From positions 1-64,000 of the forward strand of contig JAFTDF010000016.1 of the NCBI GenBank assembly GCA_017454295.1: a stretch of 64,000 nucleotides of DNA, given 5' to 3'. The DNA is from Bacilli bacterium. Lineage in GTDB: Bacteria; Bacillota_I; Bacilli_A; RFN20; CAG-826. The position numbers were made by a program, and so were the translations under genes. The notes beneath the pieces were generated by a model, which worked only from the letters and a program-made list of their open reading frames with translations, made no database searches and was not told the DNA's origin. Of the stretch, positions 1 through 55,285 are shown in pieces. Positions within the stretch are counted from its first letter, which is position 1. Each line of letters opens with the position of its first letter.

Positions 1-94
1 CGAAGCGGCTGTCCAAAAAGGGAAGGAAGGTTCACGCTAATACCTACCAAAAATAGGAACATGCGAAGCATGTTGCGAAACCTCTCGAAGTATA

Positions 95-143
95 GGAAAA
101 GGGCTGTCAATCAACCCATAGGTTTTTCAACAGCCCCTTTTCC
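95..143 (-). terminator. Hairpin after small-peptide locus copy 1
   Basis: A long inverted repeat begins one base after the peptide's stop codon. Its arms are GGAAAAGGGGCTGT and ACAGCCCTTTTCC with one bulge, and the loop contains a smaller AACC/GGTT stem. It sits where copy 2 of the family has its terminator. The arms end in a T-rich stretch on the minus strand and an equally T-rich one on the plus strand, so it could stop transcription both ways. A separate perfect repeat, AACATGC-GAA-GCATGTT, lies at 58-74. I see no gene in 1-94. Confidence 0.55.
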
Positions 144-209
144 TTACTGACGAAACTCAATCACAGTCAGGATAAACAGTACGAATACCAAGATCAGTTT
201 GGTTAACAT
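144..209 (-). CDS. Small hydrophobic peptide, copy 1 (type I toxin-like)
   Basis: A 21-residue reading frame, almost entirely one hydrophobic helix: core TKLILVFVLFILTV followed by a short polar end (IEFRQ). It was recognised because a second locus at 54478-54549 encodes TELILVLVLLILLV in the same architecture. The start ATG is preceded by AAAGGAAAG. The frame also runs back to an in-frame ATG at 263, giving a 39-residue form. A 9-bp inverted repeat (GAATACCAA/TTGGTATTC) flanks the ribosome site and start, so folding could hide them. Short membrane peptides in structured transcripts are typical of type I toxins such as Ibs, Fst and TisB; no direct homology is claimed. A small regulatory membrane peptide is the alternative. 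Confidence 0.55.
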   Translation of the reverse strand: MLTKLILVFVLFILTVIEFRQ

Positions 210-284
210 ACCCGTCTTTCCTTTGGTATTCACGGCTCCCGGCAAGCTTGGGCCTATCCACATAGAGATACCTCCTTGGATAGG
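210..284 (-). other. Leader hairpin with SD and AUG in its loop, copy 1
   Basis: On the minus strand, CCTATCC (278-284) pairs with GGATAGG (253-259). The 18-nt loop carries the strong Shine-Dalgarno AAGGAGG and an ATG at 263. The frame from that ATG begins MWIGPSLPG and continues in phase into the hydrophobic peptide. The same layout occurs in copy 2 with a different closing base pair (C-G here, G-C there), which supports a conserved RNA fold. The leader ORF resembles in principle the coupled upstream frames of hok/mok or tisAB; that analogy is inference. Confidence 0.5.
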
Positions 285-292
285 ATGCCCCT

Positions 293-342
293 AGAATAGC
301 CGATAAAAAGGTCAAAAGGAAGGGGGCTCCCCTCACTTTTTT
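293..342 (-). promoter_or_regulatory. Promoter block shared with peptide copy 2
   Basis: Read on the minus strand: AAAAAAGT, eight variable bases, CCCCCTTCCTTTT, fifteen variable bases, then TATTCT (293-298). The copy at 54331-54380 has the same blocks at identical spacing, with TATGCT as the last box. I read TTCCTT as the -35 and TATTCT as the -10 with a 17-nt spacer, and the A-tract as a possible UP element. Between this block and the helicase stop (343-398) there is only AT-rich DNA with a TATATTA/TAATATA repeat. Confidence 0.6.
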
Positions 343-54172: not shown

Positions 54173-54217
54173 AGCGGGCTTCCCAAATCCCTACAGTCGG
54201 GGTTTGGCAGCGAGTGG

Positions 54218-54246
54218 ATTATAGGACAACAAAGTTGCGACTGCAA
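54218..54246 (-). promoter_or_regulatory. tRNA-Thr promoter
   Basis: Minus strand: TTGCAG (54241-54246), 17 nt, TATAAT (54218-54223), about 46 bases before the mature 5' end. I see no other feature in 54247-54330 except an AACTTTTT/AAAAAGTT repeat. Confidence 0.8.
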
Positions 54247-54330
54247 TGTTTTCTTTCTTTCTAAGCCCCGCTTCTTCCTTTTCTATGGCTATGAAGCAGG
54301 AGAAAACCATGGGATAAAAAGAAACTTTTT

Positions 54331-54380
54331 AAAAAAGTTGACCCACCCCCCTTCCTTTTCAAAAATGGGTAAGTTATGCT
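54331..54380 (+). promoter_or_regulatory. Promoter block of peptide copy 2
   Basis: AAAAAAGT (54331-54338), eight bases, CCCCCTTCCTTTT (54347-54359), fifteen bases, TATGCT (54375-54380). Same blocks and same spacing as at 293-342 on the other strand. TTCCTT to TATGCT is 17 nt. Confidence 0.6.
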
Positions 54381-54385
54381 GAACC

Positions 54386-54442
54386 CGGATCGGGAAACCG
54401 ATCCACCAGCTATCGCCAAGGAGGACGCTTCATGGTCGATAG
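54386..54442 (+). other. 5' hairpins of the copy 2 transcript, SD and AUG in loop
   Basis: First stem GGATCGG-GAAA-CCGATCC near the predicted 5' end. Second stem CTATCG (54410-54415) with CGATAG (54437-54442); its 21-nt loop holds AAGGAGG and the ATG at 54432. Compared with copy 1 the closing pair is G-C instead of C-G, a compensatory change. TTTGCCGGG (54449-54457), just downstream, is complementary over nine bases to CCCGGCAAA in the 3' hairpin. Confidence 0.5.
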
Positions 54443-54539
54443 AATGGGTTTGCCGGGTCGGAAAGAGGAACTGCGTGATGACCGAGTTGATCTTGGTTCT
54501 CGTGCTTCTTATCCTGCTAGTGCGACAACTTGGACTTAG
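54432..54539 (+). CDS. Leader ORF of peptide copy 2
   Basis: A 35-residue frame beginning MVDRMGLPGRKEEL with the strong Shine-Dalgarno AAGGAGG. LPG at residues 7-9 matches the copy 1 leader (MWIGPSLPG). It runs through the hydrophobic-peptide gene in another phase and stops ten bases before it does. Its likely role is translational coupling or occupancy control, by analogy with mok over hok. Whether the peptide itself matters is unknown. Confidence 0.4.
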   Translation: MVDRMGLPGRKEELRDDRVDLGSRASYPASATTWT

Positions 54540-54549
54540 GGATAAATGA
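54478..54549 (+). CDS. Small hydrophobic peptide, copy 2 (type I toxin-like)
   Basis: A 23-residue peptide: one hydrophobic helix (MTELILVLVLLILLV) and a charged end (RQLGLRDK). It aligns with copy 1 (MLTKLILVFVLFILTV) at most positions of the core. Its ATG is preceded by AAGAGGAA. Its codons lie in a unit with promoter, structured leader and terminator hairpin, and an antisense promoter faces it. All of this is seen only by eye; expression and toxicity are not known. Confidence 0.58.
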   Translation: MTELILVLVLLILLVRQLGLRDK

Positions 54550-54579
54550 AGAAAACCCCTTCCCGGCAAAGGGAGGGGG
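54550..54579. terminator. Shared terminator hairpin of peptide copy 2 and its antisense
   Basis: CCCCTTCCC (54556-54564), loop GGCAAA, GGGAGGGGG (54571-54579). Read on the minus strand it is followed by TTTTCTTCATTT, a good terminator for the antisense RNA. On the plus strand the stem is strong but the following bases are not T-rich. Confidence 0.65.
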
Positions 54580-54597
54580 CCTTCAAAACCTAAGTTC

Positions 54598-54625
54598 ATT
54601 ATAGCACTATAAATGGGCCCGGCAA
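54598..54625 (-). promoter_or_regulatory. Antisense promoter facing peptide copy 2
   Basis: Minus strand: TTGCCG (54620-54625), 16 nt, TATAAT (54598-54603). Transcription should begin near 54591 and stop after the shared hairpin, giving an RNA of roughly 45-50 nt that overlaps the 3' end of the peptide message. No gene follows, since tRNA-Thr has its own promoter, so an antisense regulator is the natural reading. It could instead be a fortuitous site downstream of the lipoprotein gene. Confidence 0.5.
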
Positions 54626-54652
54626 GCCCTCTGGGATCTTCGGTTTTATTCG

Positions 54653-55285
54653 TTACGCATCGATGAAATAAAGACAATAACCCTGCCCGATGTCCGGATT
54701 TTCATACTTCAGCAATAGATAGAGGGTGTTCTCTCCTTGAAACAAACTCGGCTCGAGATGGAAGCGTTCCTCCTTGATTTGCGTGCCATGGCCTCCATTG
54801 ACCTCAGGGAAATAGAAAGCGATGAAGGGTCGGGGGACCCACCATTTCTTCGGCTCGGGTAAGACGGATTTGGGCTGGAGCTGCTTGGCATTTTCAAGAG
54901 CCACCGATTCGGGCAAGGCGAAATAAGAGAAGGAAATGCTCTCATCGGCTTCGGGAAGGGAAATCGCAAAATCACCCGCTCCATAGGAAAGGTGGCGATA
55001 AGTCGCGGGATCGCGGAGCTCGCCATTAGGGTAAAGCGAAGCAGAGACGACGCTATGTATCACATAGGCATCGCAATAAGGCGCCGCTTCCCCGGTTTCG
55101 ACATCCACGATTTCGTAGGTGATTGAGGGTAAGAATTCGATGAAACAATCCTTGCTGCCGTTCAGAGAAAAATCCAAAGGCTCGGCATAAACGGGCCGAT
55201 GGTTGCAGGTGATTTGCTTATGGTTACATCCGCATAGCAAAGCCAAGGAGACCAGAACGAGTCCGTTAACGCGATAATTCGCCAT
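54653..55285 (-). CDS. Putative lipoprotein
   Basis: A protein of about 210 residues starting MANYRVNGLVLVSLALLCGC, a lipoprotein signal with the lipobox LCGC. The mature part is beta-rich (ITYEIVDVETGEAAPYCDAY, FYFPEVNGGHGTQIKEERF). I recognise no family. Its start lies within the last 20 bases of rimO, in another phase; an ATG nine bases earlier is also possible. It ends the malQ-rimO operon. Confidence 0.65.
   Translation of the reverse strand: MANYRVNGLVLVSLALLCGCNHKQITCNHRPVYAEPLDFSLNGSKDCFIEFLPSITYEIVDVETGEAAPYCDAYVIHSVVSASLYPNGELRDPATYRHLSYGAGDFAISLPEADESISFSYFALPESVALENAKQLQPKSVLPEPKKWWVPRPFIAFYFPEVNGGHGTQIKEERFHLEPSLFQGENTLYLLLKYENPDIGQGYCLYFIDA

Follow-up and report, generated by a model that had tools for sequence, protein, structure and literature searches.

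A family of one-helix peptide loci in rumen Bacilli predicted to form a chromosomal type I toxin-antitoxin-like module

We identified a family of small loci encoding a one-helix peptide, starting from a 64,000-nucleotide stretch of DNA (the window) that corresponds to contig C46 of a 1.63-Mb draft genome (G000; 89.8% complete), whose relatives are uncultured Bacilli/Erysipelotrichaceae assemblies of mostly rumen origin. The family comprises 17 copies in 8 genomes, which represent 4 genera within a single family of uncultured Bacilli found mostly in the rumen, and is probably a chromosomal type I toxin-antitoxin-like module. Type I toxins are tiny and diverge fast, so they are hard to find; the present family is unmatched in the libraries searched and was recovered from raw sequence, and it is supported by codon constraint, a predicted antisense gene and co-varying RNA pairing.

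Two loci on opposite strands of the window, designated copy 1 and copy 2 (Table 1), share the sequence CCCCCTTCCTTTT, which has two exact matches in the window, at 54347-54359(+) and 326-314(-), and 3 matches when one mismatch is allowed, compared to 0.28 expected. As described in the earlier note, an A6GT tract before CCCCCTTCCTTTT and TAT[GT]CT after it stand at equal spacing in both loci, AAGGAGG and AUG sit in a hairpin in both (z of -5.1 and -3.0, where 28 ordinary SD-ATG sites average a z of 0), a second SD is present in both, and both encode a one-helix peptide, MTELILVLVLLILLVRQLGLRDK in copy 1 and MLTKLILVFVLFILTVIEFRQ in copy 2. Copies 1 and 2 are homologous and belong to a real family. 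A chance similarity between two intergenic regions has a negligible probability; the likeness of this single pair is short, but the local alignment score of 26.5 was reached by none of 2000 dinucleotide shuffles (maximum 19.5), the two-copy model found other copies, and iterated searches reached 17. The A6GT/CCCCCTTCC promoter motif was found in this genome only, in copies 1 and 2. A third exact CCCCCTTCCTTTT of the genome, at G000:C16:20320-20332, lies in an unrelated terminator stem and is not a family member, and neither is the single match of the promoter motif in a viral contig. The ORF at 54261-54677(-) is a mechanical reading frame.

Table 1. Coordinates of the features of copy 1, copy 2 and the adjoining insertion sequence in the window
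Feature	Position	Strand	Basis or remark
Copy 1, upstream region of sense transcript (inferred promoter)	54331..54380	+	motif common to copy 2 only
Copy 1, A6GT; CCCCCTTCCTTTT; -10-like TATGCT	54331-54338; 54347-54359; 54375-54380	+	sequence
Copy 1, 5' hairpin GGATCGG-gaaa-CCGATCC	54387..54404	+	fold; in copy 1 only
Copy 1, SD1 hairpin, outer stem CTATCG/CGATAG	54410..54442	+	fold, z=-5.1
Copy 1, AAGGAGG (paired with CUUC); AUG1	54418-54424; 54432-54434	+	fold
Copy 1, leader ORF, 35 codons	54432..54539	+	frame +1 relative to peptide
Copy 1, leader fold-back element GGGTTTGCCGGGTC	54446..54459	+	14 consecutive pairs with 54616-54629
Copy 1, second ribosome site AAAGAGGAA	54462..54470	+	sequence; purine-rich SD2 in other copies
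Copy 1, one-helix peptide MTELILVLVLLILLVRQLGLRDK	54478..54549	+	codon-position pattern; family profile
Copy 1, predicted antisense RNA, ~44 nt	54548..54591	-	ends in terminator stem 54574-54556 and T-run
Copy 1, predicted antisense promoter TTGCCG-N16-TATAAT, TG before -10	54598..54625	-	promoter scan; layout alike in most other copies
Copy 1, 3' fold-back element GGCCCGGCAAGCCC	54616..54629	+	complementarity to leader
Copy 2, whole locus	144..342	-	sequence, fold, alignment to copy 1
Copy 2, A6GT; CCCCCTTCCTTTT; TATTCT	342-335; 326-314; 298-293	-	sequence
Copy 2, SD1 hairpin; AAGGAGG; AUG	284-253; 277-271; 263-261	-	fold
Copy 2, peptide ORF MLTKLILVFVLFILTVIEFRQ	209-144	-	in-frame long form 263-144 (39 aa)
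Insertion sequence end GGGGCTGTTGAAAAAC	1..141		few bases past copy 2 stop codon

Searches covered 279 genomes of the order, with E-values given per genome. A sequence model built from the two window copies found a third copy, in G027:C21 (E 3.6e-4 per genome), a three-sequence model found a fourth, in G027:C27, and a four-sequence model found copies in G003 and G026, the acceptance of which required a short hydrophobic ORF in place, with a start and an SD. The peptide profile added two more in the genus (G026:C25 and G003:C9:118411) and seven in three other genera (one in G205, two in G206, three in G234 and one in G126). The weakest by E-value, G126_C3 (0.077) and G234_C80b (0.15), were accepted on anatomy plus profile. 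Since all genomes are drafts, the copy numbers per genome (2 in G000, 2 in G027, 3 in G026, 3 in G003, 1 in G205, 2 in G206, 3 in G234 and 1 in G126), like the absences elsewhere, are lower bounds. A pattern of exactly two copies per genome was discarded when later searches gave 1 to 3, and more distant members may exist, because stricter filters were used in the order-wide model search. Other searches returned little: BLASTN of each copy against 61 relatives gave the insertion sequence end of copy 2 and A/T-rich noise only, an SD-ATG pattern search returned ordinary genes alongside the family, an order-wide pattern of leader plus second ATG gave unrelated matches only, outside the family, and weak matches of the R1, R2 and R3 models were mostly ordinary genes. 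No nucleotide relative was found among phage and plasmid records, where only chance matches in Rhodococcus integrase genes appeared, and none of the Rfam covariance models, including those of known antitoxin RNAs, matched at the gathering score, the permissive matches being due to chance. The R3 and A7 models, together with the antisense pattern described below, can be used to annotate further genomes and metatranscriptomes.

The peptides are 17-27 residues long and follow the approximate consensus (M)-T/S/L/E-D/E/K/Q-L-I-x-x-L-L-x-L-x-x-L-I-L-x-E/K, usually with a charged tail. Substitutions at codon positions 1, 2 and 3 numbered 50, 8 and 52 when summed over 8 pairs, which overlap, so that these sums are a description and not a test, but the direction was alike in every pair; in the peptide frame of the copy 1-copy 2 pair the numbers were 5, 1 and 5. 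Codon position 2 is nearly fixed, as expected for an L/I/V/F/M helix. Comparison of the copies shows a family peptide that is conserved at the codon level and appears to be under selection. No family match was found in Pfam, PHROGs or NCBIfam among the scanned peptides of at least 20 residues, six in the case of a Pfam scan. The copies occupy unrelated, non-syntenic intergenic sites of the chromosome without a constant neighbour, and a syntenic locus was rejected, as none of 80 loci surrounding the neighbouring gene matched the family profile. Regulation of membrane complexes is a common role of one-helix peptides, and the codon pattern speaks for selection rather than poisoning, as would fit a non-toxic regulatory one-helix membrane protein for which the structured leader and the antisense RNA would serve to control translation. 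We regard this as unlikely, since the scattered, non-syntenic copies in 8 of 279 genomes, the antisense module, the tandem copies and the loss of control to an insertion sequence resemble type I toxins, and no constant neighbour could serve as the partner.

In every copy examined, the peptide is preceded by a short ORF with its own SD and start, and by a purine-rich second SD. The hairpin around the first SD (SD1 hairpin) had a z of -2.3 or lower in 6 of 10 copies and was not significant in the G026 copies and G003_C9x. Its stem sequences differ between copies and are unrelated (CTATCG/CGATAG, CCTATCC/GGATAGG, GAGGACAT/ATGTTCTC, AGAGACA/TGTCTCT, and two hairpins of G003). The earlier note had also counted a leader frame with LPG among the conserved elements, which the family does not bear out: the leader AUG and the peptide are in different frames in copy 1 but share a frame in copy 2, and the relation takes the values 0, 1 and 2 across the family. 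It is +1 in copy 1, both G027 copies, G003_C9 and G003_C11, and 0 in copy 2 and the three G026 copies, and it differs between the near-identical G206 copies through a one-base indel in the leader. Because the frame relation varies and the G206 indel changes it, the leader product is not conserved, and an LPG leader peptide as a conserved product was ruled out; translation of the leader may be conserved nevertheless. The G003 and G026 copies have in common a near-palindrome around TATACACTGTATA / TATACAGTGTC, located 130-150 bp upstream of the peptide in L126, L186, L193, L129 and L294; it may be a regulator site and was not seen in the window copies.

The hairpin at the end of the peptide ORF is preceded by an A-run and lacks a T-run after it on the sense strand, and it is therefore a putative intrinsic terminator of transcription from the opposite strand. 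Among the intact loci that were inspected, the T-run was on the antisense side only, ruling out a bidirectional terminator, as the sense side has none. The argument for self-contained RNAs, namely that both window loci end in a strong hairpin of their own, was thus wrong in detail: in copy 1 the T-run is on the minus strand only, so that the hairpin is no terminator for the peptide transcript, and the strong 3' hairpin of copy 2 (window ~90-141) belongs to an insertion sequence end. Just past the hairpin, most copies carry on the minus strand a sigma70-like promoter of the form TTGNNN-N16-18-TATAAT/TATACT, about 45 nt past the stop, and the T-run of the terminator abuts or overlaps the stop codon. 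The copy 1 promoter was found independently by a promoter scan, and the corresponding sequences are TTGCGC-17-TATAAT in G027_C27, TTGCGA-17-TATAAT in G003_C9, TTGTTG-18-TATAAT in G003_C11, TTGCGG-17-TATACT in G003_C9x, TTGTGT-16-TATAAT in G205 and G206, and TTGTCA or TTGCAA-17-TATACT in G234; the three G026 copies, G126_C3 and G027_C21 have a weak or unclear promoter. The best promoter score was at least 9 of 12 on the minus strand of 10 of the 16 intact loci and on the plus strand of 1 of the 16, and the minus-strand mean was 8.6 compared to 7.3 in shuffles. Since the p values of single loci are mostly 0 to 0.15, the case for the antisense promoter lies in its repetition at the same place. 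The predicted antisense RNA would be 36-45 nt long in six g1 loci and about 45-55 nt in G205, G206 and G234.

A specific pattern for this antisense module matched 4 times in 31 genomes, always within family loci, and reversed controls gave no match. Two of the 4 matches stand in tandem at G003:C9:143440-143678, the second without a peptide ORF, and in G003_C9x the second module copy is partial. An RNA antitoxin complementary to the toxin mRNA is thereby predicted. Direct repeats between the 5' tail of the antisense RNA and the initiation region, as in par, were no better in own pairs than in cross pairs, and because no second contact with the initiation region was found, the sequence leaves it unexplained how a 40-nt antisense RNA at the 3' end would stop translation. 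The earlier proposal of a paralogous type I toxin-antitoxin-like family is supported overall by homologues found in related genomes (17 copies in 8 genomes), by substitutions that respect the peptide frame while stem sequences change in step, and by this predicted antisense RNA gene at the 3' end of most loci. In L338 and L339 (G234), the final NKKK/NKKE codons of the peptide, AACAAAAAGAAG, also provide the opposite-strand T-run of the antisense terminator. In L122 (G027:C21), the place 3' of the peptide where the short antisense gene is usual is taken by two minus-strand terminator hairpins in succession, along with a longer, structured GC-rich stretch that has no Rfam match.

The leader shows complementarity to a sense-strand segment located 40-100 nt beyond the stop, through sequences that are specific to each locus and co-vary. 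In copy 1, GGGTTTGCCGGGTC and GGCCCGGCAAGCCC form 14 consecutive pairs (0 of 300 shuffles); in G026 the pair is GGCTTGCCCCACCCTTG with CAAGGGTGGGCAAGCC, and in G126 GGGTTATCC..CCTTGCA with TGCAAGG..GGATAACCC. These pairings were evaluated by helix scoring, which replaced RNA duplex energies with unlimited loops, as the latter were uninformative. Among 11 representatives, own pairs had a mean of 31.0 compared to 23.3 for cross pairs (permutation p=2e-5; Fisher 3.6e-6), and an earlier set of 9 loci gave p=0.0002. When the structure of the long sense RNA was predicted, the fold-back helix closed in copy 1, G027_C21 and the G026 copies. A 5'-3' fold-back of the message, a feature of hok/sok, is present as complementarity. 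It was not detected in the G003_C11 and G234 copies, and it is absent from copy 2 because the 3' part of that copy was replaced by an insertion sequence. The 3' fold-back arm contains or adjoins the -35 of the predicted antisense promoter.

The same complementarity would arise if the 3' segment belonged not to the toxin mRNA but to a small plus-strand RNA of its own, acting on the leader in trans by base pairing, in the manner of OrzO, IstR and AgrB, small RNAs that pair in trans. The inverted-repeat geometry fits a same-strand trans antisense RNA, and the module is duplicated downstream of G003_C9; yet between the stop and the segment the plus strand has no promoter above shuffles (mean 7.5 vs 7.3), where the minus strand has one, and no plus-strand terminator was located within the module. 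This second origin of the segment seems to us improbable, solely for lack of a plus-strand promoter, as the fold-back evidence is shared by both readings. A mobile palindromic (MITE-like) repeat, with terminal inverted repeats and an incidental peptide, could also account for the dispersed copies, the inverted complementarity and the insertion sequence end beside copy 2 and G003_C11. It is very unlikely, given that the peptide shows codon-level selection, that the arms differ between loci and match within them, that they lie within the leader and 3' UTR rather than at fixed ends, and that no target duplication was seen.

For the type I module, we infer from the sequence a toxic peptide, two transcripts and the following order of regulatory events. 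A sense RNA of ~300 nt, whose 3' end is assumed because no plus-strand terminator was located, would read through the one-way terminator hairpin, take in the 3' segment and fold back on its own leader, leaving the message silent. Translation of the leader ORF, and of the peptide with it, would need the opening of both this lock and the SD1 hairpin, e.g. once the 3' end has been trimmed. The ~40-nt antisense RNA, with full complementarity to the 3' UTR of the sense RNA, would remove or silence the message as long as it is made, and upon its decay or the loss of its promoter the membrane peptide would be made and the cell arrested in growth or depolarised. Tentatively, the family might even represent a new regulatory class of type I toxin-antitoxin, in which a ~40-nt 3' segment serves as both the leader lock and the upstream part (-35 region) of the antisense promoter, with the antisense terminator T-run in or next to the last toxin codons. 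If so, two control layers would lie on one sequence and be obliged to co-evolve.

We compared the family with known systems. Ibs of E. coli is a very short, almost purely hydrophobic peptide, as are those of the rumen family, and Sib RNA spans the whole ibs gene; six rumen-family peptides of at least 20 residues have no Pfam match. RatA (txpA) and SR4 (bsrG) of Bacillus subtilis are convergent RNAs that overlap the 3' end of the toxin message, the arrangement also predicted here, whereas the antitoxins of txpA/RatA, bsrG/SR4 and yonT/SR6 are about 100 nt or longer and the toxins longer and unrelated. Hok is ~50 aa with conserved residues, and no Hok match in Pfam was found among the family peptides; the antisense RNA Sok is directed against the 5' mok leader, in contrast to an antisense gene predicted here at the 3' end, and the two systems have no sequence relation. 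SR6 of yonT/SR6 is convergent and overlaps the 3' end of the toxin message (excerpt of PMC5848175). A short mok-like leader ORF, an initiation region ahead of the toxin and a 5'-3' fold-back of the message are shared with hok/sok (excerpt of PMC6733600). According to the same excerpt, aapA/IsoA of Helicobacter pylori encodes a small hydrophobic peptide on a ~225-nt message with SD-sequestering hairpins, a 5'-3' long-distance interaction and activation by 3' trimming (PMC6733600); the peptide, the hairpins and the interaction resemble the rumen family, but the aapA SD pairs with the 3' end, while here the leader pairs downstream of AUG1, the excerpt notes no leader ORF for aapA, and the sequences are unrelated. 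The par/Fst module (Fst/Ldr superfamily of Firmicutes, e.g. par of pAD1) has convergent promoters, a toxin RNA of a few hundred nt, an antitoxin RNA of ~40 nt, a hairpin between them, an SD-sequestering 5' stem-loop and a one-helix toxin, usually with a charged C-terminal tail (excerpt of PMC7472228). The predicted layout, the one-helix peptide and the SD hairpin are common to both, as is, by prediction, a ~40-nt convergent antitoxin RNA beside a hairpin. The rumen family differs in that its peptides have no PXXXG(C) motif, no P in their helices and no match to a Pfam model, its T-run is on one strand only where the par terminator is bidirectional, no repeats between antisense tail and initiation site were detected, it has an extra leader ORF, and its 5'-3' complementarity co-varies, a property not described for par in the excerpt of PMC7472228. 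By prediction, the family combines a par/Fst-like minimal convergent antisense RNA with a hok/aapA-like 5'-3' lock; it lacks sequence and architectural features that define each of them.

Since the opening 140 bp of contig C46 also open contigs C14 and C7, which diverge just past GGGGCTGTTGAAAAAC, window 1-141 is taken to be an insertion sequence end. The layout indicates that the insertion sequence has displaced the antisense gene and the 3' fold-back element of copy 2. Most hok homologues of E. coli carry insertion elements close to the toxin ORF (excerpt of PMC6733600), which resembles the loss of the 3' module of copy 2 to an insertion sequence right after the ORF. This decapitated copy, the tandem antitoxin-like module and the whole copies in tandem constitute natural experiments. 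The insertion sequence end GGGGCTGTTGAAAAAC is multi-copy, has relatives in congeners and also lies just upstream of the G003_C11 copy. A tandem pair of complete elements, 331 bp apart, is present in L339 (G234:C80). The region between tRNA-Thr(GGT) and a RimO/MiaB-like gene is a variable slot and is the site of copy 1. This slot (54173-55265) is ~1.1 kb long here, compared to ~70-110 bp in the relatives L204, L209 and L211, and contains the peptide locus and a 213-aa putative lipoprotein without a Pfam match. A second tRNA-adjacent case is L129, where tRNA-Arg(TCT) (1728-1804) lies shortly downstream of the G026_C50 copy.
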